DNA from: Hyphococcus sp.
GTDB lineage: Bacteria; Pseudomonadota; Alphaproteobacteria; Caulobacterales; Parvularculaceae
Reading direction: 5' to 3'
Assembly: GCA_021776245.1 (NCBI GenBank)
Contig: JAJFGF010000048.1
Span: forward strand, 62,001 to 126,000
Length of the DNA: 64,000 bases
A program made the translations under genes and the position numbers. How positions within the stretch are numbered: position 1 is the first letter of the stretch; each line of letters begins with the position of its first letter. Shown one piece after another: positions 32,077 to 45,457 of this stretch. The notes below the pieces were generated by a model. That model did not search any database and had not been told where the DNA came from. It worked only from the letters and a program-made list of their open reading frames with translations.

Positions 32077-32161
32077 CAATAACGCATTAATCATATTGGT
32101 AAGGAATCGATTAATTCAAATTGTATAGTTTTGCGTGAATCTTAAGCCAAGGACTATTCCC

Positions 32162-35100
32162 ATGGTGCAAAACGATCAGCAGCGTAATTCAGCCGGCGAC
32201 GAACGAGACAGCGAAGAACTGGCGGCCCATGAGGCCGAAAGAAAGGCGCTTGAAAAGGCGCGCGACCCTGTCGATACGCTCTCGCAGAGCGGCGATGAGG
32301 ATGCAAATGCTGCGAACTTGCATTACGGATCGCGGACAGATGAAGGATTGACAGCCCAATCAGAAGTTAATGATGGCGCCCCTGAAGCGCCGCCGTTTGA
32401 TAGCGAACTTCATTCAGACGAACGGTCGCAAGGTGTCGAAGAAACACAAGAGCCGGGCGGCGCAGATAAGAGCCTGGGCGAAACCGGTTCAGATTCAGCG
32501 CAGCGCCTGCGGGAAAACCGCAATCAGGAAGATCGTTCAGCCTCTTCGGAAACGGCGCCAGCCGCGCAACAAGTCGAGGGCGGCGATATCGCGATCCCCG
32601 GAGTGGAAGACAGCGGATCAGGGCCGGTTCAGGCCGCAGCGCTATCTGTAAAACGCGGCGGCGCAAACGAGGCGCCGTTTGATATCGAGCTTTCAGACAC
32701 GATAATCGACGAAAATGTCAGCGGCGCCAAGATCGCTGAACTTTCATCTTCCGATAATGATGAAGACGCGACCGCGACTTATTCAATTGCTAAAGATGAT
32801 TCCGGTCTGTTTGAAATCGTCGGCAATGAACTTCGCCTGAAAGTAGGCGCCTCATTCGATTTTGAAGGCCAGGGCGAATATTCGATTACGTTGACCGTCA
32901 CGGATTCCGACGGCGCGACATATGATGAAACCTTCTCGATTGCTGTCGGCGACGTCAATGAGGCGCCTGAGGCTCTATCGCTGTCGAATGCAACGATAGA
33001 TGAAAACGAGGCCGGCGCCATCGTCGGCGATTTAAGCTTGGCGGATGTGGATGCCGGTGACAGCCATACATACGATGTTGACGACGCGCGTTTCGAAGTC
33101 GTCGGGGGCCAGCTCAAGCTCAAAGACGGTGTTGCATTAGATCATGAGGCTGCGGCAAGCGTAGACGTTACAGTTACAGCGACCGACCGCGGCGGGCTTT
33201 CGATCAACGAAACCTTCTCGATTGCTGTCGGCGACGTCAATGAGGCGCCTGAGGCTCTGTCGCTGTCGAATGCAACGATAGATGAAAATGAAGCCGGGGC
33301 CATCGTCGGCGATTTAAGCTTGGCGGATGTGGATGCCGGTGACAGCCATACATACGCTGTTGACGACGCGCGTTTCGAAGTCGTCGGGGGCCAGCTCAAG
33401 CTCAAAGACGATGTTGCATTAGATCATGAGGCTGCGGCAAGCGTAGACGTTACAGTTACAGCGACCGACCGCGGCGGGCTTTCGATCAATGAAACCTTCT
33501 CGATTGCTGTCGGCGATGTGAACGAGGCGCCTGAGGCGTTGACGCTGTCAAATGCAACGGTTGATGAAAACGAGGCCGGCGCCATCGTTGGCGATTTGGG
33601 TCTCACCGATGTCGATGCTGGCGACAGCCATACATTCGCGGTGTCCGATAATCGTTTTGAAGTGGTCGGCGGCCAGTTGAAACTCAAAGACGGCGTCGCT
33701 CTCAATCATGAGACTGCGGCGAGTATTGACGTCACCGTCACAGCGACGGACAGCGGCGGCCTTTCCACCAGTGAATCTTTCTCAATCTCTGTCGGCGATG
33801 TGAATGAGGCGCCTGAGGCGTTGACACTGTCAAACGCCACTATCGATGAAAATGAAGCCGGGGCCATCGTCGGCGACCTTACGTTCAGCGACGTCGACGC
33901 CGGGGATACGCACGCCTATTCGGTCGATGACGCACGTTTTGAAGTCGTCGGCGGTCAGCTCAAACTTAAAGATGGCGTCGCTCTCGATCATGAAACAGTG
34001 GCCAGCCTTGATGTTACTGTCACCGCAACCGATAGCGGCGGTCTCTCCACCAACGAAACATTTTCCTTAGCTGTTGGCGATGTGAACGAAGCGCCGGAAG
34101 CGCTGACGCTTTCCAATGCGACAGTCGATGAGAATGAAGCCGGCGCGGTCGTCGGCGATCTCGCGCTCACCGACGTCGATGCGGGCGACAGTCACATTTA
34201 TGCCGTTGACGATGCGCGATTTGAAGTTGTCGGCGGCCAGCTGAAGCTGAAAGACGGCGTGGCGCTCAACCACGAAGAAGTTGACTCCATTGACGTCACC
34301 GTCACGGCGACAGACGCGGGCGGCCTTTCGACCAATGAAACATTTTCCATCGCGGTTGGCGATGTTAATGAAGCGCCGACAGATATCGCATTCACTTCTG
34401 TGCGGCAGGTACCAATTGACAATGCGGGTTTTGAAGCCCGGTCTTATGGTGATCAGCGCTGGGGCAGCGGGGCGCCGGGCTGGGAGTCCAGCGGCGGCAG
34501 CGGAGACTGGAATCCGGCAGCACGTAGTCTGGCGGCAGAAGCATCAGAAGGCGACAACGTAGCCTACGTTAACAGCGGCAATCTTGCGCAGACCGTGGAT
34601 GAAATCTTCGCCCAAGATGGTGAGTATACGCTTTCTGTTGATGTCGGAAACAGGCAGGACATCAGCAGCTTTGGCGAATATGAGGTCCGGCTTTACGCTG
34701 GCGATGAGTTGATTGGATCCGCAGATGGAGGCGCGCCTGCAGAAGGCGGCTGGCAAACCGTGACATTAAATGTCGATGGTTCCGACTTTCCAGCGGACTT
34801 TGCGGGCTTTGGCGAAAACCTAAGAATCGAATTAGTGAAAATTAGCGGCGGGCAGGTCAATTTTGACAATGTACAGCTTGGCGTAACCGATTCAGGATCA
34901 GAAATGGTTGTGCCGGAAAACCAGCCCGGCGCACAAATAGCAGTACTGTCCGCCAGCGATCCGGATATCGGCGATACGCACACTTTCACTATTTCTGATG
35001 ACCGATTTGAAATCGTTGATAATGCCCTCAAGCTGAAGGACGGCGTTTCGCTCGATCATGAAGAAGCCGATAGCGTTGACATTATCGTCACTGCGACAGA

Positions 35101-38053
35101 CGCTGACGGTCTTTCCTATGACGAAAATTTCTCAATTCGTATTGGAGATGTAAACGAGGCGCCGGACCAGCTTTCGCTGTCAAATACGACTGTCGATGAA
35201 AACGACGCCGGCGCCATTGTCGGTGATCTCTCGCTCAGTGACGTTGATGATGGCGACAGTCATAATTTTGTCGTTGATGACGCGCGTTTTGAAGTCGTTG
35301 ACGGACAGTTGAAACTCAAAGATGGAGTCTCTCTCAATCATGAGCAGGCAGACTCGATTGACGTAACAGTTACGGCAACAGATTCCCGTGGGCTTTCCAC
35401 GAATTCGAGCTTTTCGATCGGCATTGGCGACATAAACGAAGCGCCCTCGAAAATAGGCGTCATTACCTCACGCGAAATCGAAATTGACAATGCAGGTTTC
35501 GAAGACCGCGCCTATAGCGACCAGCGATGGGGCAGCGGCGCGCCGGGCTGGGAGTCCGACGGCGGCAGTGGCGACTGGAATCCGGCGGCGCGCAGTCTGG
35601 CCGCGGAAGCATCAGAAGGCGCCAACGTAGCCTATATCAATAGCGGCGGCCTGGCGCAGACAGTGGATGAATTCTTTTCGGCTGACTCCAATTATGAGCT
35701 TTCCGTTGACGTGGGCAACCGCCAGGACATTTCAGGATTTGGTGAATATGAAATCCGTCTCTATGCGGGCAATGAATTGATCGGCGCCGCCGATGGCGGC
35801 GCGCCTGTTGAGGGCGGTTGGGAAACCGTAACGCTAAACGTCAATGGTTCCGATCTTCCTGCAGATTTTGCCGGCTTCGGTGAGAGTCTGCGGATCGAGT
35901 TGGTAAAAATTGGCGGCGGTCAGGTCAATTTTGACAATGTCCGTCTCAATGCTGTTGATGTTAGTCACGATCTTAGTGTTGATGAAAACACGCCTGGCGC
36001 AGTAATTGCCAATTTGAACGTGATCGATGAGGATGCAGGCGACGGCCATACCTATGCCGTCGATGATGCGCGCTTTGAGATTGTTGGAAACCAGCTCAAG
36101 CTGAAAGACGGCATTGAGCTCGACCATGAAGCCGCGTCGAACATTGAAGTCGTTGTGACGGCGACAGATAGTGGCGGCCTTTCGACTAATCAGACTTTCT
36201 CGGTTGCGGTTGGTGATGTGAATGAGGCGCCGGAAAGCCTTGCGCTGTCAAATACGACAATTGACGAAAACGACGCGGGCGCCGTTATCGGCGAATTGAG
36301 TCTGACGGATGCCGACGCCGGCGACAGCCACACCTACGCCGTGGACGATGCGCGCTTTGAAGTGGTTGGCGGTCAATTGAAACTAAAAGACGGCGTCGCG
36401 CTCGATCACGAAGCGTCTGACTCTATTGATGTTACGGTGACAGCGACGGACGGCGGCGGTCTTTCGACCAATGAAACCTTCTCGATTGCAGTCGGCGATG
36501 TGAATGAAGCGCCAGAGGCGCTGACGCTGTCCAACACAACGATTGACGAAAACGATGCCGGCGCCATTGTTGGCGATCTCGCTCTCACCGACGTCGATGC
36601 AGGCGACAGCCACACTTATGCCGTTGACGATGCGCGCTTTGAAGTGGTCAGTGGCCAGTTAAAGCTGAAAGACGGCGTAGGCCTCAAAAATGAAGATGCA
36701 GCGTCTGTCGATGTGACGGTAACGGCGACTGATAGCGGCGGACTTGCGACAGAGGAGACCTTTACGATTGACGTCACTGACCATGATCAGGTGATCAACG
36801 GCAGCGCTGATCCCGTCATCGGTGATGTGGGGCAGGTCGGGACCGTCACAGTCGGCCAAGCATCATCGGCGCAATGGCATAGCGTGGCGTTTGATCAGCC
36901 GATCACCGATGCTGTGGTCGTTATGAGCGGCAATACGCAAAACGGATCTGATCCGTTCACAATTCGTGTGCGCAATGTGACGGAAAACGGATTTGAATTC
37001 CAGATTGACGAATGGGATTATCTTGACGGCTATCATGTGACCGAAACACTAAGCTGGATGGCGGTGGAAGAGGGCGTACATACGCTTGAGAATGGCCAGA
37101 CGCTGTATGCGGGCAATGAAAATGTCGACAGCAAAAAGGCAAAATTTGACCTGCCAGATGAACTGACCGATCCGGTTGTGCTGGCGCAGGTGCAAAGCGT
37201 CAATGAAGCTTCCGCTGTTACAGTGCGTACTGATATTCAAAACAATGGCAAGGTGCAGCTCTACCTTCAGGAAGAAGAAAGCATCAGGAACAAAGGTCAT
37301 GTCGATGAAACGGTTGGCGTCATCGCGATCGACAATGGCGGCGCCGCGGCTGAAGGCATAGTGGTGGGAACAACGGGCGATAAAGTTCGCCACACAAATT
37401 TCAGCGAGTCCTACGGCGACGACTTTAATGGCGTAGAGCACGCGCTATTTACTAACATGCAAACAGATGACGGCGGAGATACTTCCGTTTCGCAGATTTC
37501 ATCATCAAGCGATACGGGGTTTTCGGTGCACATTGAGGAAGAACAGTCCAAAAATTCGGAGATCAATCACACCACAGAAGATGTCGGTTTTGCGGCTATT
37601 GAAATCGGGACGCTAAAGGCGATCACGACGCCAGGCGCGGCCGATCTTGATGACACGCTGACCGGTGGGCTTGGCGACGACACGATTTCCGGCGGCATGG
37701 GCAATGATATTATTGACGGCGCGGCCGGCGACGACGTTCTGATCGGCGGTCTCGGTGATGACATGATCTCCGGAGGCGATGGGTCCGACACGTTTATCTA
37801 TCAGATGGGCGACGGAAACGACATTGTCAGCGGCGGCGTCGGCGGCGGCTGGACGGACGTTTTACAGCTTGACGCCGGCAATGGCGATTTCGGCGATTTG
37901 GGCGCGGACTGGACGATTAGCTTGTCGCAAGGCGCCGTCACCGCACAGGACGGCGACAGTGTAAATCTCTCTGACGATGCAGAAGGCATCATTACGTTTT
38001 CTGATGGATCAACTGTCAGTTTTGACGGCATTGACGAGATCGGGCTCGCCTGA
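32162..38053 (+). CDS. Giant cadherin-repeat RTX adhesin secreted by T1SS
   Basis: A 1963-residue protein without a signal peptide. An acidic, low-complexity head (~1-165) is followed by eleven ~94-residue cadherin-like repeats, each with DENxxGAxV and GDVNEAP calcium-site motifs: repeats 1-6 (~170-735), two jelly-roll-like modules (~750-905 and ~1105-1260) separated by repeats 7-8, and repeats 9-11 (~1265-1540). Residues ~1543-1816 hold an H-lectin-like pair of segments, then RTX nonapeptides (GGLGDDTISGGMGND, ending GSDTFIY) at ~1826-1885, and a C-terminal secretion region. ATG at 32162 has AAGGA eight bases upstream; a GTG at 32135 is also in frame. It is expected to be a surface-attached, Ca-stiffened adhesin. 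Confidence 0.9.
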   Translation: MVQNDQQRNSAGDERDSEELAAHEAERKALEKARDPVDTLSQSGDEDANAANLHYGSRTDEGLTAQSEVNDGAPEAPPFDSELHSDERSQGVEETQEPGGADKSLGETGSDSAQRLRENRNQEDRSASSETAPAAQQVEGGDIAIPGVEDSGSGPVQAAALSVKRGGANEAPFDIELSDTIIDENVSGAKIAELSSSDNDEDATATYSIAKDDSGLFEIVGNELRLKVGASFDFEGQGEYSITLTVTDSDGATYDETFSIAVGDVNEAPEALSLSNATIDENEAGAIVGDLSLADVDAGDSHTYDVDDARFEVVGGQLKLKDGVALDHEAAASVDVTVTATDRGGLSINETFSIAVGDVNEAPEALSLSNATIDENEAGAIVGDLSLADVDAGDSHTYAVDDARFEVVGGQLKLKDDVALDHEAAASVDVTVTATDRGGLSINETFSIAVGDVNEAPEALTLSNATVDENEAGAIVGDLGLTDVDAGDSHTFAVSDNRFEVVGGQLKLKDGVALNHETAASIDVTVTATDSGGLSTSESFSISVGDVNEAPEALTLSNATIDENEAGAIVGDLTFSDVDAGDTHAYSVDDARFEVVGGQLKLKDGVALDHETVASLDVTVTATDSGGLSTNETFSLAVGDVNEAPEALTLSNATVDENEAGAVVGDLALTDVDAGDSHIYAVDDARFEVVGGQLKLKDGVALNHEEVDSIDVTVTATDAGGLSTNETFSIAVGDVNEAPTDIAFTSVRQVPIDNAGFEARSYGDQRWGSGAPGWESSGGSGDWNPAARSLAAEASEGDNVAYVNSGNLAQTVDEIFAQDGEYTLSVDVGNRQDISSFGEYEVRLYAGDELIGSADGGAPAEGGWQTVTLNVDGSDFPADFAGFGENLRIELVKISGGQVNFDNVQLGVTDSGSEMVVPENQPGAQIAVLSASDPDIGDTHTFTISDDRFEIVDNALKLKDGVSLDHEEADSVDIIVTATDADGLSYDENFSIRIGDVNEAPDQLSLSNTTVDENDAGAIVGDLSLSDVDDGDSHNFVVDDARFEVVDGQLKLKDGVSLNHEQADSIDVTVTATDSRGLSTNSSFSIGIGDINEAPSKIGVITSREIEIDNAGFEDRAYSDQRWGSGAPGWESDGGSGDWNPAARSLAAEASEGANVAYINSGGLAQTVDEFFSADSNYELSVDVGNRQDISGFGEYEIRLYAGNELIGAADGGAPVEGGWETVTLNVNGSDLPADFAGFGESLRIELVKIGGGQVNFDNVRLNAVDVSHDLSVDENTPGAVIANLNVIDEDAGDGHTYAVDDARFEIVGNQLKLKDGIELDHEAASNIEVVVTATDSGGLSTNQTFSVAVGDVNEAPESLALSNTTIDENDAGAVIGELSLTDADAGDSHTYAVDDARFEVVGGQLKLKDGVALDHEASDSIDVTVTATDGGGLSTNETFSIAVGDVNEAPEALTLSNTTIDENDAGAIVGDLALTDVDAGDSHTYAVDDARFEVVSGQLKLKDGVGLKNEDAASVDVTVTATDSGGLATEETFTIDVTDHDQVINGSADPVIGDVGQVGTVTVGQASSAQWHSVAFDQPITDAVVVMSGNTQNGSDPFTIRVRNVTENGFEFQIDEWDYLDGYHVTETLSWMAVEEGVHTLENGQTLYAGNENVDSKKAKFDLPDELTDPVVLAQVQSVNEASAVTVRTDIQNNGKVQLYLQEEESIRNKGHVDETVGVIAIDNGGAAAEGIVVGTTGDKVRHTNFSESYGDDFNGVEHALFTNMQTDDGGDTSVSQISSSSDTGFSVHIEEEQSKNSEINHTTEDVGFAAIEIGTLKAITTPGAADLDDTLTGGLGDDTISGGMGNDIIDGAAGDDVLIGGLGDDMISGGDGSDTFIYQMGDGNDIVSGGVGGGWTDVLQLDAGNGDFGDLGADWTISLSQGAVTAQDGDSVNLSDDAEGIITFSDGSTVSFDGIDEIGLA
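32942..34351 (+). repeat. Five 282-bp tandem repeats (cadherin-like units 2-6)
   Basis: Identical motif positions recur every 282 bases (94 codons) at 32942, 33224, 33506, 33788 and 34070, ending at 34351. The first two units are almost identical in DNA, differing at a handful of bases, so they arose by recent duplication; the others are more diverged. Such an array can expand or contract by recombination. Confidence 0.9.
34415..35938 (+). repeat. Duplicated 456-bp jelly-roll module (34415-34870 and 35483-35938)
   Basis: The two modules begin IDNAGFE and end GGQVNFDN and keep the same length (152 codons) and an exact 1068-base offset with no visible indel. They share QRWGSGAPGWES, GGSGDWNPAARSLAAEASEG, SVDVGNRQDIS, EYE.RLYAG and RIELVKI. 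The fold resembles carbohydrate-binding jelly-rolls of the N-x-G-F-E...W type. Confidence 0.75.
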
Positions 38054-38186: not shown

Positions 38187-39590
38187 ATGAATTGCAACCA
38201 TGTCGTGCAATTGTGCGATATGGTTAACAAAACTCTAGCATTTCTATCCAGCATAAGTGCGAGCCTGTTATTTTGCGGAACGGCTGACGCGGAAAATGTC
38301 GCTGAAGCTATAGCATTCGCAATGAACCATGATCCGCGCGCAGAACTCGCTGAAGCGGCGACAAAACTTGCGCGTTCTGACGCCGTCAGCCAGCTTAGCG
38401 GTTTCTTGCCGACGATAGAGGGAACCGTTTCCTATACGGATGATGAATTCCGCAGTTCGTCCCTCGACACGCTTCAGGAAAGAGATGGCACCACATTGGG
38501 CGTCACCGTTTCACAGCCGGTTTTCCAGGCGTTTTCGGACATCAACCGGTATCGTGCAGCTCGAAAAGGGGTTGAACAACAGGAATATCTGGAAGTTGAC
38601 ACCCGTAATCAGATCGCCCTGAGTGCTGCGCGGGCCCATGCGGCGACGATTTTTTATCGCGACGTCGTCGGCAGCCGCAATGGCAATATTAAATTGTTGA
38701 GCCGCCAACATGAAATTGCACGCCGCCGGATGGAAGCCGGCGCCCAAAGTAAAACCGGTGTTGAACAGGCGCTTATGCGCCGGGACCAGGCAATTGTTGA
38801 TCTTGAACAGACGCGCGCGATTCTCGTCTCAAATGAAGCGGCTTACCAGCGCATTGTAGGTCACAGGCCGCCAGAAAACCTGACATTGGACGATGGACAT
38901 TTGTTCGACAATTTTGACACGCTTGAAACGGCGATCGGCGCGGGCATGCAAAATAGCCCGGTGTTAAATGCGGCGCGATATGGCGCCGATGCAGCACATC
39001 TGGGCGTTGCTGCAGCGAAAGGCGATTTTGGGCCAAAACTGTTTGTAGAAGGAAGTTATCTAAACCGTCTGCGCCAACAGTCCGGTCTTGTGCAGGAAGA
39101 CGAATATCAGGTGGTCGCCCGCATGCGCGTGCCGATTTTTTCCGGGGGGCGCAATATCGGTGGTCATCGGCGTGCATCTGCGCGATATGCGCAGAGCAAA
39201 GCAGAATACACGAATGCAAGTCTGGCCCTTCGCGAAACGATCGAACGGAGTTGGCGCCAAATGCAGATCGCAAAGACCCGCGGCGTGATTGCAGCGCGTG
39301 CAGTCAAATCCGCTGAAAGGGCAGTTAAAGGCCTCGAGATTGAATATGAGGCGGGCCGACGCAACGTAATCGACGTCCTGGACGGACAACGTGATCTGGT
39401 GAACGCGCAGATTGGCCGATCCCAGGCGGATTACGACTATCGCGTGGCGGGTTATGAATTGCTGGCGACGATTGGCGTGCTTGCCGACAACAACTCGGCG
39501 GACACATCAACGCCTCAAAGCGAAAATGAACCTGCAATCAACCTTGATGAAATTAATTTTGGTGATGAAGAACCGGCGGAGCGTTTGTAG
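38187..39590 (+). CDS. TolC-family outer-membrane efflux protein for the T1SS
   Basis: A 467-residue outer-membrane channel. The signal peptide is MVNKTLAFLSSISASLLFCG..ADA if translation begins at the ATG at 38220; the upstream ATG at 38187 adds 11 residues. Neither has a good Shine-Dalgarno. The mature protein has the TolC layout of paired coiled-coil hairpins with repeated TRNQIALSAARAHA and RRMEAGAQSKTGVEQAL motifs, and the second half repeat AEYTNASLALRETIERSWRQM and YEAGRRNVIDVLDGQRDLVNAQ. The Asp/Glu-rich C-terminal tail is dispensable in relatives. It lies 133 bases after the adhesin and completes the T1SS set. Confidence 0.9.
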   Translation: MNCNHVVQLCDMVNKTLAFLSSISASLLFCGTADAENVAEAIAFAMNHDPRAELAEAATKLARSDAVSQLSGFLPTIEGTVSYTDDEFRSSSLDTLQERDGTTLGVTVSQPVFQAFSDINRYRAARKGVEQQEYLEVDTRNQIALSAARAHAATIFYRDVVGSRNGNIKLLSRQHEIARRRMEAGAQSKTGVEQALMRRDQAIVDLEQTRAILVSNEAAYQRIVGHRPPENLTLDDGHLFDNFDTLETAIGAGMQNSPVLNAARYGADAAHLGVAAAKGDFGPKLFVEGSYLNRLRQQSGLVQEDEYQVVARMRVPIFSGGRNIGGHRRASARYAQSKAEYTNASLALRETIERSWRQMQIAKTRGVIAARAVKSAERAVKGLEIEYEAGRRNVIDVLDGQRDLVNAQIGRSQADYDYRVAGYELLATIGVLADNNSADTSTPQSENEPAINLDEINFGDEEPAERL

Positions 39591-39741: not shown

Positions 39742-40284
39742 ATGTTGAAATATTGCGCCCTTTTGGCTGTCTTTGGTCTGGCCGCCTGTGGCGAAGCAAC
39801 CAGGACTGTTGGGGAAAAAGCCGCAGCCGCCCATGACCTCGAAGTAATCTCCCGCGACGTCAATTCGTCCAACGGCAAGGCGCTTTTTGTCGATCAGGGT
39901 TGCGTCATCTGCCATTCGGTCAATGGCGTTGGCGGCAAAGCCGCGCCGGCGCTTGACGCGGCCATCGGGGCGCCGGCGATCGATCCCCTCGATTTTGCGG
40001 CGCGGATGTGGCGCGGCGCGCCTGCGATGATTGAACTTCAGTCGATCGAACTTGGCTACACGATCTACCTGACCGCTGATGAAATTGGCGATCTTGCGGC
40101 TTTTGCCGGCGATATCGCTGAGCAGAAGACGCTCAACCTGGAAGACGTGCCCGAGACCTTGCGCAGCGGCTTTCTCGATGAGCAGTTTTGGGAAGTAGAA
40201 AATTGGGAAGATTTCCTGCGTTCCGGGCAGGAAGAGGCCGGTCAGCAGGAAACTGAGACGCCGGGGCCCGACCAACAGCCCTGA
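39742..40284 (+). CDS. Class I cytochrome c lipoprotein
   Basis: A 180-residue protein with a lipoprotein signal (MLKYCALLAVFGLAAC, lipobox C16) and one haem attachment site CVICHSV at residues ~54-60. Distal methionine candidates are in RMWRGAPAMIEL. GGAG lies upstream of the ATG. The C-terminal tail is acidic and Gln/Glu/Pro rich (EEAGQQETETPGPDQQP). It is anchored to a membrane on the periplasmic side and probably shuttles electrons. It lies between the tolC gene and nuoA; a link to either is not shown. Confidence 0.85.
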   Translation: MLKYCALLAVFGLAACGEATRTVGEKAAAAHDLEVISRDVNSSNGKALFVDQGCVICHSVNGVGGKAAPALDAAIGAPAIDPLDFAARMWRGAPAMIELQSIELGYTIYLTADEIGDLAAFAGDIAEQKTLNLEDVPETLRSGFLDEQFWEVENWEDFLRSGQEEAGQQETETPGPDQQP

Positions 40285-40297
40285 ACGGCGCCGTCAA

Positions 40298-40323
40298 GCC
40301 GCGAGAAAACTGCGGTTTTCGGC
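40298..40323 (+). terminator. Hairpin between cytochrome c and nuoA
   Basis: GCCG..GAAAAC and GTTTTCGGC can pair around TGCG with a three-base bulge. There is no T-run after the stem, so it may be a weak or factor-assisted terminator before the nuo operon. Confidence 0.3.
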
Positions 40324-40420
40324 CTCACAAGCACTGAATCGCGTTGCGTTCTCATCCGCATCTTTCTAGTTTCCGGCCAGATTTGATACTGGGGCGACGG
40401 GGCCCCGAAGGAGTGCATTC

Positions 40421-40816
40421 GTGGCGACGCCGGACTTTTTGCTCAACTATCTGCCGATCCTGATTTTTTTGGGGCTCGCAATTGTGCTTGGCCTTGGTTT
40501 CCTGGTCGCACCGGCAATTATTGCACCCGCTGACCCGGATCCCGAAAAAGTCTCGACCTACGAATGCGGGTTTAATGCGTTTGACGATGCGCGAATGAAG
40601 TTTGACGTTCAGTTCTATATCGTTGCGATCCTCTTCATTATTGTCGATCTCGACGTTGCTTTCCTGTTTCCGTGGGCGGTGATGCTGTTCAATCCGGAAC
40701 TCGGCCATGATCGCGGGTTTCAGATCTTCGCCTTCTGGTCGATGTTTGTGTTTATCGCCGTCTTCGCCATTGGCTTCCTCTATGAATGGAAAAAGGGGGC
40801 CCTGGAATGGCGCTAG
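40421..40816 (+). CDS. nuoA: NADH-quinone oxidoreductase subunit A
   Basis: A 131-residue membrane subunit of complex I at the junction of the peripheral and membrane arms. Three helices are visible, with the conserved [20 protein letters not shown] loop (Cys of the switchable loop) and [11 protein letters not shown] in helix 2. The start is a GTG at 40421, supported by GAAGGAG seven bases upstream. The end overlaps nuoB by ten bases. Confidence 0.96.
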
Positions 40817-41376
40817 AGCCTGGAAAAATGCCATATGGGACGGCAGCGCGCGTGGGCGCGGCGGGCTATAACCCGACCGCCAAAGATCCGTTCCATTCCG
40901 AATTGTCAGACCAGCTCGCTGATCGGGGCTTCATTACCGCCCCTGCTGATGCGTTGATCAATTGGGCCCGCACGGGTTCCCTGATGTGGATGACCTTCGG
41001 GCTTGCCTGCTGCGCCGTTGAAATGATGCAGGCGTCAATGCCGCGCTATGACGTAGAACGCTTTGGCTTTGCGCCGCGTGCTTCCCCGCGCCAGTCGGAT
41101 GTGATGATTGTCGCCGGCACGCTGACCAACAAAATGGCGCCGGCGCTTCGCAAAGTTTACGATCAGATGCCGAACCCGCGCTACGTGATCTCCATGGGAT
41201 CCTGCGCCAATGGCGGCGGTTATTATCATTATTCCTATGCTGTAGTGCGCGGCTGTGACCGCGTCGTGCCGGTCGATATCTACGTGCCCGGCTGCCCGCC
41301 GACGGCAGAGGCGCTGGTCTACGGCATTTTACAGCTTCAAAAGAAAATCCGCCGTGAAGGCTCGATTATTCGGTAA
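40807..41376 (+). CDS. nuoB: NADH-quinone oxidoreductase subunit B
   Basis: A 189-residue peripheral-arm subunit that binds the terminal [4Fe-4S] cluster N2, which reduces quinone. The ligands are seen in [11 protein letters not shown] (tandem Cys), [15 protein letters not shown] and [11 protein letters not shown]. The ATG at 40807 overlaps the nuoA stop. An N-terminal ~45-residue extension before the core is Gly/Ala rich, normal for alphaproteobacteria. Confidence 0.97.
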
Positions 41377-41382
41377 TATGGC

Positions 41383-41991
41383 ATGAGCGAAGAACTCAAA
41401 GAACTGGGCGAGCATATCGCGGCGTCCATCGACGCCGACATCCGCGGCTGGCAGGTGGAGCATGGCGAGCTGACGGTTGATGCGCGGGCCGACCGCATCG
41501 CACCCATATTGAAGTTTTTGCGCGACGATCCCCTGGCGAAGTTTCTGGTGCTGATTGATTTGACCGGCGTCGATTATCCGGAACGGGGCAAGCGTTTCGA
41601 TGTCGTTTATCATCTGTTATCGATGCATAATAATACGCGCATTCGCGTTAAGGCGCAGCTGGGCGAAGACGAAACCATCCCAACCGCGACTGAGGTCTAT
41701 CCCTGCGCCGACTGGTTCGAGCGCGAGGCGTTCGATATGTACGGCATTGTCTTTTCCGGCCATCCGGATTTGCGCCGAATCCTCACTGATTACGGCTTTG
41801 AAGGTTATCCATTGCGCAAGGACTTCCCGCTCACCGGCCATGTGGAGGTGCGCTATGATGACCAACAAAAACGCGTCGTTTATGAGCCGGTGAAGCTAAC
41901 CCAGGAATTTCGCAATTTCGATTATCTCTCTCCATGGGAAGGCGCGCAATATGTGCTGCCGGGCGATGAAAAAGCTGACGCGAGCGAGTAG
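41383..41991 (+). CDS. nuoC: NADH-quinone oxidoreductase subunit C
   Basis: A 202-residue 30-kDa subunit of the peripheral arm without Fe-S clusters. The signature is ERAEFDMYGI-like (here [29 protein letters not shown]) with [11 protein letters not shown]. Its last residues (DEKADASE) and the TAG stop run into the first heptad of the inverted-repeat element (41984 onward). A fused nuoCD is not used here: nuoD is separate and 490 bases away, unlike the close spacing usual in alphaproteobacterial nuo operons. Confidence 0.95.
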
Positions 41992-42013
41992 TGAATAGCG
42001 AGTAGAGAATAGA
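41991..42013 (+). repeat. Left terminal inverted repeat of the S23 element
   Basis: It matches the reverse complement of 42438-42460 at 21 of 23 positions and is made of degenerate GNGARTA heptads. The nuoC stop (41989-41991) touches its first base. Confidence 0.8.
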
Positions 42014-42024
42014 ATTTGAGATGA

Positions 42025-42678
42025 ATGGCGACCGAACAGAAATTTCAATCCTATCGCGATCTGCTGGTTTGGCAGTCGGGGATGGCTGTTGCGGAAGCCT
42101 GCCATCATGCGACAAAGCAATTTCCACGCGAAGAGTTGTTTGGAATGACATCGCAAATTCGTCGCGCAGCCGCGTCTATTCCGGCCAACATTGCCGAAGG
42201 CCACGGGCGAGAAACTTCGGGGTCATTCATTCATTTTTTGCGCATAGCGCAGGGCTCTCTGAAAGAACTGGAAACCCACCTTCTCCTCTCTGTTCGCGTC
42301 GGCCTCATAAGCGAGACCGGTTCACAACCTCTTCTCGATCAGTGCCTGGAACTCGGAAAAATGCTGCGCGCATTGATAAGATCGATTCAACGAAAAGCGA
42401 CCAACGAAAAGCGACCAACGAAAAATGATCACTATTCTCTATTCTCTACTCCCTATTCGCTTAATGCAGCAGGCATCCCATGCCTGACGGAACCAAAGTC
42501 ATTGATGTCGAAGATAGCGCTTCCGACGCGTCCTCGGAGCGTTCTTTTACGATTAATTTCGGCCCGCAGCACCCAGCGGCGCACGGCGTGTTGCGTCTCG
42601 TACTTGAACTTGATGGCGAAGTTGTCGAACGCGTTGATCCGCATATCGGTCTTTTGCATCGCGGCACCGAAAAGCTGA
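42025..42678 (+). CDS. Four-helix-bundle S23 (23S rRNA intervening-sequence-type) protein
   Basis: The first ~120 residues are unmistakably the S23 family (PF05635): [75 protein letters not shown]. Family members are usually ~115-130 residues and end there. Here the frame runs on without a stop through the right repeat and 199 bases into nuoD (to 42678, 217 residues in all). The tail after RSIQRK looks like out-of-frame nuoD sequence and not a real domain. Function of S23 proteins outside rRNA is unknown. Confidence 0.75.
42389..42430 (+). repeat. Three 14-bp direct repeats (AACGAAAAGCGACC) at the end of the S23 gene
   Basis: Perfect copies at 42389-42402 and 42403-42416 and a diverged third at 42417-42430 that runs into the right heptad array. 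The period is two heptads, so the DNA tract may have grown by slippage. It is translated in the S23 frame as [12 protein letters not shown]. Confidence 0.8.
42438..42460 (-). repeat. Right terminal inverted repeat of the S23 element
   Basis: Reverse complement equivalent of 41991-42013, 21 of 23 matching. It ends 19 bases before the nuoD start, so the nuoD ribosome-binding region may be drawn from or next to the element. Confidence 0.8.
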
Positions 42679-43706
42679 TCGAGCACAAGACTTACTTACA
42701 GGCGATCCCTTATTTCGACCGCCTTGATTATGTGGCGCCGATGAACCAGGAGCATGCTTTCTGTCTTGCGGCGGAAAAACTGCTCAAAATTGAGGTTCCA
42801 AAACGCGCGCAACATATTCGCGTTCTCTTCTGCGAAATCGGCCGCATCCTGTCGCATATATTGAATGTTACGACACAGGCGATGGATGTGGGCGCATTGA
42901 CGCCGCCGCTCTGGGGGTTCGAAGAACGCGAAAAGCTGATGGTGTTTTATGAGCGCGCATCAGGCAGCCGCATGCATGCAGCCTATTTCCGTGTCGGCGG
43001 TGTGCATCAGGACCTGCCGCCTGAGCTCATCGATGATCTTGACGCCTGGTGCGACCAATTCCCGGAAAAGATGGCGGACATCGAAACGCTGATTACCAAC
43101 AACCGTATCTTTAAACAGCGCAATGTGGATATTGGCGTTGTCACCAAAGAAGAGGCGTTCGCCTGGGGCTTTTCCGGCGTGATGGTCAGGGGGTCAGGCA
43201 TTCAGTGGGATTTGCGGCGCGCCCAACCCTATGAAACATACGACGAATATGAATTTCAGATTCCCATCGGCAAAAATGGCGACTGCTATGATCGTTATCT
43301 CTGCCGCATGGAGGAGATGACGCAATCTATTTCCATCATGAAGCAGGCAATTGAAAAGCTAAGGGAAACGCCGGGCCCCGTCATGACCACTGACGGTAAA
43401 GTGGCGCCGCCAAAGCGCGCTGAGATGAAGGGCAATATGGAAGCCCTGATCCACCATTTTAAGCTTTACACGGAAGGCTTTCACGTGCCAGCGGGCGAAG
43501 TCTATGCCGCCGTTGAAGCGCCAAAAGGCGAGTTTGGCGTCTATCTTGTCTCAGACGGTTCCAACAAACCCTATCGCTGTAAAATTCGTGCGCCGGGATA
43601 CCCGCATCTACAGGCGATGGACTGGATGACAAAAGGCCATATGCTGGCGGATGTCTCGGCCATCATCGGCTCGCTTGACGTGGTGTTTGGAGAGATTGAT
43701 CGGTGA
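42480..43706 (+). CDS. nuoD: NADH-quinone oxidoreductase subunit D
   Basis: A 408-residue 49-kDa subunit lining the quinone cavity. It shows [44 protein letters not shown] and, at the C-terminus, [41 protein letters not shown], all typical. Start ATG at 42480 with only a weak GCAGCAGG upstream; it lies within the S23 reading frame's overrun. Its stop overlaps the next gene's GTG by four bases. Confidence 0.97.
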
Positions 43707-44095
43707 GTACCGACGCCGCCATTGCCGGAATTACGCTAGGTTCATTCGTTGGGTTTGTGATACTCGGCAGCGTCATAGGGTCAGCTGTAAGAATGCACAA
43801 CGAGAGTCCCAAACGTGTGGTATTGGGGGGTATGATTTGGGGCGCCCTTATGTATGTGTTCATATTGATGCCGATGACCGTCCTTGCATTGTTTTTCGCC
43901 GACGCCAAGCTGGAGGCGTGGACCCAGATATTGCCAGGCACTATTTTGTTGATTGTGTTGCAAGTAACAAGAGCGCTCTTTCAGCTACCGCTGATTGGCC
44001 CCCCACTTTTGGCGTACGAAATTGCGCATGCGCGGTCTCGGGCTGTGCGGATGAATAAACACCTTCGAAAACTTGAAGCACTTGAAAAAGCCTGA
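43703..44095 (+). CDS. Small three-helix membrane protein inside the nuo operon
   Basis: A 130-residue protein with three or so hydrophobic segments ([69 protein letters not shown]) and a basic C-terminal helix ([18 protein letters not shown]). GTG at 43703 overlaps the nuoD stop by four bases (GTGA), implying coupling. Not a complex I subunit I recognise. Confidence 0.6.
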
Positions 44096-44175
44096 TCGAC
44101 ATATCCAATTACACATCAACGTTCAGAAGTTCGCATTCTGGGAGTGCGACTCGTGACGGGGATGTGGGGTTTCAA

Positions 44176-44442
44176 ATGAAAATCCCTTCTGTCACCTGCG
44201 GCACCCATGGCGAACAGCCCGAGACCTTTGTCTGCGTCCACATCATTGCGGCGCTGAAAAAGGGCGAACCGAGCGGTTTTTGGTGGTCGCGCTCTGAAGA
44301 AGGCGTCTGGGACGCGATCTGCAATGATTGCAACAATCTCTCTCAACAGGAATTCGATGCGCTGGGCGCCGATAATATCGGCATTGTTTGTCTTGGCTGT
44401 TTCGAAGACGCCGCGACGCTTAATGAGATCCAGCTTGACTAG
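44176..44442 (+). CDS. Small zinc-ribbon-like protein
   Basis: An 88-residue protein with two Cys/His clusters: TCGTHGEQPETFVCVHI at the N-terminus and CNDCNNLS...VCLGC near the C-terminus. These resemble small bacterial zinc-ribbon proteins with a C-x2-HG...VC.HI opening. ATG at 44176 is chosen; a GTG at 44164 is also in frame. GTGGGG lies just upstream. Function unknown; placement between nuoD and nuoE is unusual. Confidence 0.55.
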   Translation: MKIPSVTCGTHGEQPETFVCVHIIAALKKGEPSGFWWSRSEEGVWDAICNDCNNLSQQEFDALGADNIGIVCLGCFEDAATLNEIQLD

Positions 44443-44770
44443 AATTCCGGGTTCTTTCCCGCGTGCCGCTGCTGTCGGCGCTTGTGTTGATTGCGGCGAA
44501 CCGCCGCGCTGATTCGACCTGAGATCGCTGCATCACGGTCATCGGACCCTGTGAGCAGCGCCGGATGGAAAGCGTTGTCTCCGAAACAGTCCGATAAAAT
44601 GTCGAAGGCGGCCCAGATTAGACGATCTCACTGGCCGATGGAGAAAGCTCCAAGAGGCTTGCCCTGTGCTAATGAAAAAGCCTAACAAACAGCCGGGCGC
44701 GTTCTGGATCAGGCGCGTTGAGCGTTAGGTCGAACGCCGCCTTTCCGGCGGCATTGAGCAACAATGGTGA
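44443..44770. other. Unassigned 328-base gap before nuoE
   Basis: No convincing gene. A 64-codon Arg/Ser-rich frame at 44491 has no supporting signal. A GCCGCC-TTTCC-GGCGGC hairpin (44736-44752) sits about 18 bases before nuoE and could mark processing. I could not match any known ncRNA (no tmRNA, RNase P, 4.5S or 6S landmark) by eye. Confidence 0.4.
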
Positions 44771-45457
44771 ATGACTATGGCGGCGCGCAGACCCGCTACC
44801 CAGCAGCCGGCTTCGTTTGAGTGGAGCGCGGAAAACCAGCGCTGGTGCGATGAACAGATTACGAAATACCCTGAAGGGCGGCAGGCCTCCTGTGTGATTC
44901 CGTTTTTATGGCGCGGCCAGAAACAGGAAGGCTGGTGCTCGATACCGATGATGGAGGCGATCGCACGGCAGCTGTCGATGCCGTATATTCGCGTCTATGA
45001 GGTCGCGACATTCTATACGATGTTTAATCTCGCCCCGGTTGGCGAGTATTTCGTCCAGATTTGCGGCACGACGCCCTGCATGCTGCGTGGGGCGCAGGAT
45101 TTGCGCGAGGTTTGCAAAAAGGTCATTGGCGTGGAAAATCACGTTTCCGATGACGGGAAGTTTTCCTGGCTGGAGGTTGAATGTCTCGGCGCCTGCACGA
45201 ATGCGCCGATGATCCAGATTTCGACCAAAGTCGGCGATCATTATTACGAGGATCTGACGCCGGAGATCTTTGAAGACCTGCTCGCGAAAATCCGGCGTGG
45301 CGAAGAGGTCAAAATCGGCACACAAAATCCGGGACGCCATACGTCAGACCCGGACGGCGAGAACACGACGCTCACCGACCCAACGCTTTATGACGGATCG
45401 CGCGCGCAACCCTTAAAAGAAATACCGAACGCGCAAGCCCCAACGCCTGCTGAATAA
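44771..45457 (+). CDS. nuoE: NADH-quinone oxidoreductase subunit E
   Basis: A 228-residue [2Fe-2S] (N1a) subunit. The four ligands are CGTTPCML and CLGACTNAPM. YPEGRQASCVIPFLWRGQKQ and YIRVYEVATFYTMFNLAP are typical. The C-terminus extends ~50 residues past the core (HTSDPDGENTTLTDPTLYDG..), a common alphaproteobacterial feature. ATG at 44771 is preferred; a second ATG follows at 44777. Confidence 0.95.
   Translation: MTMAARRPATQQPASFEWSAENQRWCDEQITKYPEGRQASCVIPFLWRGQKQEGWCSIPMMEAIARQLSMPYIRVYEVATFYTMFNLAPVGEYFVQICGTTPCMLRGAQDLREVCKKVIGVENHVSDDGKFSWLEVECLGACTNAPMIQISTKVGDHYYEDLTPEIFEDLLAKIRRGEEVKIGTQNPGRHTSDPDGENTTLTDPTLYDGSRAQPLKEIPNAQAPTPAE

Follow-up and report, generated by a model that had tools for sequence, protein, structure and literature searches.

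The junction between nuoC and nuoD in the complex I operon of the alphaproteobacterium Hyphococcus sp. probably holds one copy of a mobile element, composed of an S23 gene and flanking arms of heptad repeats, which inserted at the nuoC stop codon ahead of nuoD and is of the same kind as the S23-encoding intervening sequences (IVSs) of 23S rRNA. The evidence for this is comparative and comes from sequence. We analyzed a 64,000-nt stretch of assembly GCA_021776245.1 (contig JAJFGF010000048.1, positions 62,001–126,000 of the forward strand), referred to as the window, and all coordinates given are those of the window; the genome it comes from is labeled G000. The feature has the look of a small, selfish DNA cassette that is kin to bacterial rRNA intervening sequences, and judging from its relatives elsewhere, mobile elements of this kind may be widespread but have received little notice.

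All parts of the window copy lie on the forward strand. The upstream host gene nuoC (41383–41991; PF00329, NF004733) runs into the left arm (41983–42012), a tandem array of 7-nt repeats reading AGCGAG, TAGTGAA, TAGCGAG, TAGAGAA and TAG in succession, G-rich on the sense strand, which overlaps the end of nuoC and supplies its TAG stop codon (41989–41991). Next come an open frame of 217 aa for an S23, or four helix bundle, protein (42025–42678, with the S23 domain at 42055–42369), a 14-nt tandem repeat (42388–42429) at the 3′ end of the S23 gene, with two exact copies and a degenerate third, the right arm, an inverted copy of the left (42432–42461), and the downstream host gene nuoD (42480–43706; PF00346, TIGR01962). 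The window ORF matches PF05635 over residues 11–115 (E 3.6e-36, 124.1 bits against a cut-off of 33.8) and TIGR02436 (120.9 bits against a cut-off of 24), and solved relatives of S23 exist as 2gsc and 2rld. A first-pass annotation of this DNA had described an S23 gene lying inside the ends; the PF05635 match bears out the gene, but the frame is open through the right arm to 42678, with no stop before that arm, and extends 199 nt into nuoD in another frame. Since the 14-nt repeat sits where, judging from relatives, the S23 gene usually stops, the window copy may be decaying at its 3′ end. This S23 gene is the only one found in G000. Elsewhere in the window, a 1972-aa ORF at 32135–38053 has many cadherin-like repeats and a C-terminal glycine-rich region of calcium-type repeats, and is followed by a TolC-like gene at 38187–39590 (both named by eye).

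The two arms stand out clearly from their surroundings. The 23-base inverted ends of the first-pass annotation were confirmed, 41991–42013 being identical at 21/23 positions to the reverse complement of 42438–42460, and the best longer arms, 41983–42012 and 42432–42461, match at 25/30. The arm score of the window copy is 19, a value reached at none of 1466 random window spots with similar spacing and the same scoring (maximum 12). When the whole window was scanned, the right arm was the only lag-7 array above the threshold used. The GNGARTA heptads that had been described are indeed present, but this unit is the window copy's own and other copies have other heptads; an exact-match search for the GNGARTA pattern across G000 returned no second site. 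An Rfam scan of 40000–45000 gave no match, and a promoter and terminator scan of 41300–42700 gave two promoter-like matches, where 1.1 were expected, both outside the element. The element probably has no promoter of its own and would live on read-through from the host operon.

How common is this arrangement? Among the relatives searched, 26/119 genomes, G000 included, bear S23. Within the family of the window genome 22 of 62 genomes have S23 and 40 lack it, and S23 was present in 20/385 genomes of a class-level set and 62/398 of a phylum-level set. A scan of genome contigs, using the family and order S23 proteins as query, matched at least 592 stretches; the best 80 loci, which are not a random sample, come from many phyla and include one archaeal and one Kaiserbacteria record. 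These 80 and 35 family and order loci make up a set of 115 loci (L070 duplicates L014). S23 was also found in 29 of 72,556 plasmid records. A single weak match in 50,697 phage records does not indicate carriage by phages.

Heptad ends flank most of the S23 genes examined when relatives are searched for such ends together with S23, the check that the first-pass annotation had proposed. Across the 115 loci the inverted-repeat score of a copy's own ends had a median of 17, compared with 8 for left and right ends taken from different loci, and it exceeded the 95th percentile of 600 mixed pairs in 93 loci and the 99th in 47. The best tandem period was 7 on the left side of 82/114 loci and on the right side of 86/114, with the remainder mostly 14, and the mean score was 16 vs. 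4.6 in control stretches; no significant tandem period was found on either side in 16/114. In the class, plasmid-free and phylum set, 50/78 loci lay above the 95th percentile of mixed pairs and 28/78 did not. The distance from arm to arm had a median of 460 nt in the 137 copies with a clear score. Two outliers deserve description. A Planctomycetota record (L091) has very long heptad arms on both sides of S23, with a score of 93. The 1.5-Mb genome G483 has eleven diverged S23 copies (L157, L168, L170–L178), of which L172 alone has a clear arm score, possibly reflecting a different use of S23.

The arms are matched within a copy and vary freely between copies. The consensus heptads of 94 copies comprise 72 different units, and when aligned in phase these share little beyond NAGNNNN (T 61%/C 19%, A 79%/G 18%, G 95%). 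Within a copy, the two arms agree at 87.6% of positions in register and at 75.0% when shifted by one unit, with the register better in 88/94 copies. This in-register agreement, with variant units following one another in the same order, indicates that the ends are inverted copies of each other. Own ends also match better among copies at a single junction: at nuoC-nuoD own ends score 17.2 vs. 10.6 for mixed ends on average (21 loci), the own pair being the single best in 8/21, and at murB-ddl 17.7 vs. 11.5, the own pair being the single best in 3/7. Between different sites, the similarity of units grows with that of S23, from 3.68 to 4.80 of 7 (as high in 0/200 permutations), with a weak heptad-S23 rank correlation of 0.16. 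The unit AGGATTG is common to two loci that are sisters in the S23 tree, L098 of Chitinophaga and L119 of Betaproteobacteria. We infer that movement of the element makes its two ends identical, probably by copying one to produce the other, and that they decay thereafter.

A non-autonomous, MITE-like transposon that carries S23 as a passenger and is mobilized in trans by an enzyme encoded elsewhere in the genome, either a transposase or a reverse transcriptase, is a possible but clearly less probable account of these copies. It would sit well with the S23-less inverted heptad pairs seen near S23 copies and at S23 junctions (L028, L093, L172, L183 and L193). Ends that are read by one transposase are conserved in sequence between copies, whereas the ends here are not, and with 72 consensus heptads in 94 copies these elements lack the conserved terminal inverted repeats by which insertion sequences are recognised. 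Between the arms of the window copy no transposase gene was found: the Pfam scan of the S23 ORF matches the S23 family only, and the other listed ORFs overlap it. As for a partner in trans, reverse transcriptase (PF00078) occurs in 4/22 S23-bearing and 6/40 S23-less genomes of the family, with none found in G000, and Y1 transposase (PF01797) in 6/22 and 6/40, respectively; G000 is among the six S23-bearing genomes, with one match of 29.1 bits at a cut-off of 23. Judged by comparing counts only, and for these two families searched, neither has a clear association with S23 in the family genomes.

The complementarity of the ends might alternatively be maintained for a role in RNA. The feature would then be an RNA-level IVS whose ends form a double-stranded stem in nuo mRNA that RNase III cuts, separating the nuoC and nuoD mRNAs, with selection keeping the ends complementary. 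The minimum-energy fold predicted for the sense strand does pair the window ends, the element lies mostly in sense orientation, and the copies in rRNA carry the same arms; an excerpt of PMC4990558 describes RNase III cleavage of the 23S IVS of Coxiella, which has tandem heptamers and a terminal stem of 28 bp. Selection for pairing in the sense RNA would predict an excess of G-U among arm mismatches, and there is none: 96 G-U vs. 102 A-C in 134 copies, 83 vs. 94 in an earlier set of 112 copies, and 2 vs. 6 in three rRNA copies. The fold z-score is better for the antisense strand (−3.66) than for the sense strand (−1.71), and in the close pairs L016/L017 (murB-ddl) and L018/L022 (nuoC-nuoD) unpaired changes and one-sided heptad loss are apparent by eye. 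The lack of a G-U excess favours ends that were made alike at movement and then decayed over upkeep for an RNA function, and we regard the RNA-level reading as possible but clearly less probable. The suggestion in the first-pass annotation that the paired ends act in the mRNA, uncoupling nuoC from nuoD, is thus so far unsupported, with the strand-specific G-U/A-C test null and the arms of two close pairs apparently drifting with no compensating changes. Cleavage of nuo mRNA at the paired ends as a side effect is possible.

Mobility is best seen by comparing filled with empty sites. We compared 30 nuoC loci, G000 included, of which three do not extend to nuoD. S23 lies between nuoC and nuoD in six of the 30 (one of these has it immediately behind nuoC, close to where its contig stops), eight have an empty junction with at most 21 nt between the two genes, and 12 have other sequence of 424–879 nt with no S23 at this position. 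Small non-S23 genes occupy the junction in L036, L038, L041, L044, L045, L047–L049, L051, L053, L055 and L058; they are mostly GFA-like by eye, and that of L041 is confirmed by Pfam as GFA-family. In G020 (L028/L035), S23 precedes nuoC, and an S23-less piece of ~190 nt with heptad-like bounds follows a GFA-like gene before nuoD. The nuoC-nuoD junction thus seems to be a general entry point. Eleven family genomes have S23 at the nuoC/nuoD junction, counting G030, where nuoD is beyond the contig end, and G011, where nuoC falls outside the locus. The closest empty relative at this junction is G021, with a NuoC identity of 94%.

Pairs of filled and empty sites also occur outside the family, on plasmids, and give a sharper contrast there; these junction comparisons cover seven matches among those listed and were read by eye. 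In the Nostoc plasmid C052, S23 lies behind a TraM-domain gene, and two plasmids of C057 at about 95% identity are empty there; Nostoc ATCC 53789 has an S23-less, heptad-bounded piece at the site that is filled in C052. Calothrix brevissima has S23 between an integrase gene and a hypothetical gene, and three others at about 90% are empty. In Anabaena 90, S23 lies between cas6 and cas4, and a 98.7% relative has a different insertion. At cas6-cas4 of L188 (Dolichospermum), where Anabaena 90 has the S23 element, there is a different inverted-repeat insertion with the ends GTAGGTTGGGTT and AACCCAACCTAC. Inspection by eye of empty against filled sites in Nostoc, in Calothrix and at nuoC-nuoD showed no target-site duplication; junction bases are replaced, and empty and filled junctions differ by between a few and some forty bases.

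These sites bear directly on the idea that S23 belongs to the complex I operon as an accessory gene passed on vertically, for example as a small protein that regulates nuo expression, and that the repeats are decorative. S23 does recur at nuoC-nuoD, both in Rhizobiales and in several genera of the family, and purifying selection acts on it, the closest pair giving a dN/dS of 0.11 and the next closest, in which one copy has an in-frame stop, 0.10. Against this, 40/62 family genomes are without S23, several S23 lineages occupy one junction, and further copies are found in rRNA genes, on plasmids and at junctions such as cysD-cysN, sdhA-sdhB and gmk-nadD. We consider the accessory-gene explanation, largely refuted by the S23 tree and the empty sites, very improbable; S23 would serve the element and not complex I. 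The postulate of the first-pass annotation, a small mobile unit that contains no transposase gene, is supported by empty sites and by copies at other junctions, on plasmids and in rRNA. That annotation had also named the state of affairs that would speak against mobility, with no empty site and no such ends elsewhere, and both parts of it are contradicted, as empty junctions exist and heptad ends occur elsewhere.

The S23 tree was built from 129 proteins over 117 columns, with 19/148 rows dropped for a low arm score or short sequence, and its bootstrap support was unsettled. In this tree the 20 nuoC-nuoD copies need five changes, four of them forced by well-supported branches, and three cysD-cysN copies need three. 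Even the copies from the genus of the window genome are split, with L002 and L023 apart from L005, L007 and L008. This provides good but not perfect evidence that the same junction appears to have been entered by different S23 lineages; part of the S23 polyphyly could come from poor resolution or from transfer of whole operon pieces.

Where the mobile S23-heptad element inserts follows a recognizable pattern. Neighboring genes on both sides run in the sense direction relative to S23 in 72 of 82 decided loci, both run antisense in two and eight are mixed; orientation was undecided in 33/115 loci, and the calls come from an amino-acid-composition score that mis-calls nuoC in L073 and L090. The sense bias could arise from selection rather than from insertion preference. 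The upstream stop codon falls inside the left arm in 32/74 loci and at most 30 nt before it in 39/74, together 71/74. Beyond nuoC-nuoD, seven loci have S23 at murB-ddl (genes named by reading the flanks), and clustered S23 loci from Bacteroidetes and one Chloroflexi lie at sdhA-sdhB (Pfam of one or two loci). Further junctions identified by Pfam, at one or two loci each, are cysD-cysNC, gmk-nadD, the space between an amino-acid-kinase/NAT gene and an argC-like gene, and others. The gmk-nadD junction of L138 is the same junction as in a Flavobacterium columnare phage region in which, in an excerpt of PMC5524665, guanylate kinase, four helix bundle protein and nicotinate-mononucleotide adenylyltransferase genes stand in a row.

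Several junctions have features of their own. The genes upstream of S23 in L222, L231 and L234 end CysD-like by eye (EGYF or QGYF before the stop), and cysD-cysN may be a common S23 site in other Pseudomonadota too. At cysD-cysN of L013 (S23 at 1483–1821) and L024 (S23 at 1495–1821, locus reversed), the heptads enclose S23 and a second gene, of 214 and about 189 aa, respectively. The two second genes are alike by eye, that of L013 is without a Pfam match, and its end (SPIPNPQSPL) is encoded by the right heptads of L013; it looks like a passenger gene. In L003, L005, L007, L010, L022, L073 and L106, inspection by eye shows a small palindrome centered on GGAG (for example GCGCCGGAGGCGCC or GCACCGGAGGTGC) between the right arm and the start of nuoD, perhaps a ribosome site brought by the element.

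Heptad arrays are also found away from S23. At a distance of over 320 nt from S23, the S23 loci contain 33 such arrays, vs. 0–2 at each of the lags 5, 6 and 8–11; they include one in L065 that is an arm of the neighboring element L021, and the far right arms of L013 and L024. Similarity to the arms of their own S23 copy was scored for 21 arrays and is 5.14 of 7, vs. 3.94 for random S23 arms (as high in 0/2000 permutations); the other 12, which either have no clear S23 unit or are the L065, L013 and L024 cases, were left out, and several arrays can share one locus. Excerpts of two papers report intergenic heptameric tandem repeats in Xanthomonas and Nostoc (PMC4692102) and in Beggiatoaceae (PMC4679880), and inverted pairs are formed in 70 and 75 cases in two Xanthomonas genomes. 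Like S23 arms, these are 7-nt tandem arrays between genes with some inverted pairs. The terms S23, four helix and intervening have no occurrences in the main text of either paper. Going by this likeness, the intergenic heptads of Xanthomonas, Nostoc and Beggiatoaceae may derive from S23 elements.

The kinship with 23S rRNA intervening sequences claimed in the first-pass annotation holds, as S23 insertions in the 23S rRNA of three genomes have the same arms. S23 with period-7 inverted arms lies inside 23S rRNA in L158 (G394), L160 (G131) and L218/L219 (G692, two identical places), where the flanks contain five, five and three, respectively, of five motifs that we take to be conserved in 23S rRNA, and where the flanking sequence is presumably helix 45. 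All of these came from the class and phylum sets; the 23S motif check of the first 115 loci found none. In the S23 tree, L158 and L160 group with L154, L169 and L172, in which no 23S motif was seen, in a well-supported separate group, so that the copies in rRNA form a divergent branch in which copies from elsewhere are interspersed.

A broader proposal, which we consider about as likely as not, is that S23-heptad elements form a bacteria-wide, partly archaeal class of mobile elements without a transposase, of which the rRNA IVSs would be the special case that was noticed. They would insert at stop codons of operon junctions, be recognised by the 7-nt period rather than by fixed ends and, whenever they move, rebuild one of their ends from its partner; orphan intergenic heptads, as in Xanthomonas and Nostoc, would be S23-less derivatives, and some copies would have a passenger gene. 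Heptad-flanked S23 genes outside rRNA are not described in the portions surveyed of the open-licence literature (PMC4990558, PMC8700078, PMC5524665, PMC11270868, PMC4692102, PMC4679880 and PMC5896051). The same architecture at operon junctions of many phyla would turn an rRNA curiosity into a general mobile element, and S23 elements may tie in 7-nt repeats that were described separately. It would be unusual for an element to be defined by ends that correspond within each copy yet have no fixed sequence from copy to copy. Movement and RNA processing can be tested on culturable cyanobacteria, which offer natural pairs of filled and empty sites, and on the filled junctions of Rhizobium.

How does the S23-heptad element compare with known systems? 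Short intergenic inverted-repeat elements without a transposase of their own are known as REPIN/RAYT and MITE, and their ends are conserved within a family. Unlike these, the element described here has ends that differ by copy, and it encodes S23. Avd of diversity-generating retroelements is a distant sequence relative of S23 (NF033474, E 5.8e-4, 20.1 bits against a cut-off of 80); such retroelements need a reverse transcriptase, and G000 has no PF00078 match. The closest counterparts are the S23-encoding 23S rRNA intervening sequences, found in Coxiella and, as another known case, in Leptospira. As excerpted, PMC4990558 describes the Coxiella IVS as an insertion at helix 45 with an S23 ORF, RNase III cutting at its 28-bp terminal stem and three tandem GACAGAT heptamers whose number varies among strains; it adds that a Xanthomonas S23-related protein is a pentamer and that S23 proteins and rRNA intervening sequences were long without a known role. 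The Coxiella IVS measures 428 nt in the same source, against the median of 460 nt for the copies here. The window element and the 23S rRNA IVS are alike in having one S23 gene, complementary ends and tandem 7-nt repeats, the last being seen in the Coxiella IVS and in the three rRNA genomes here rather than being a published defining feature of IVSs. They differ in that the window copy sits between protein genes of an operon and not in rRNA. In sequence terms, the rRNA IVS and the operon element share every anatomical feature tested except location, and the window element, though not an rRNA IVS by location, is apparently the same element.
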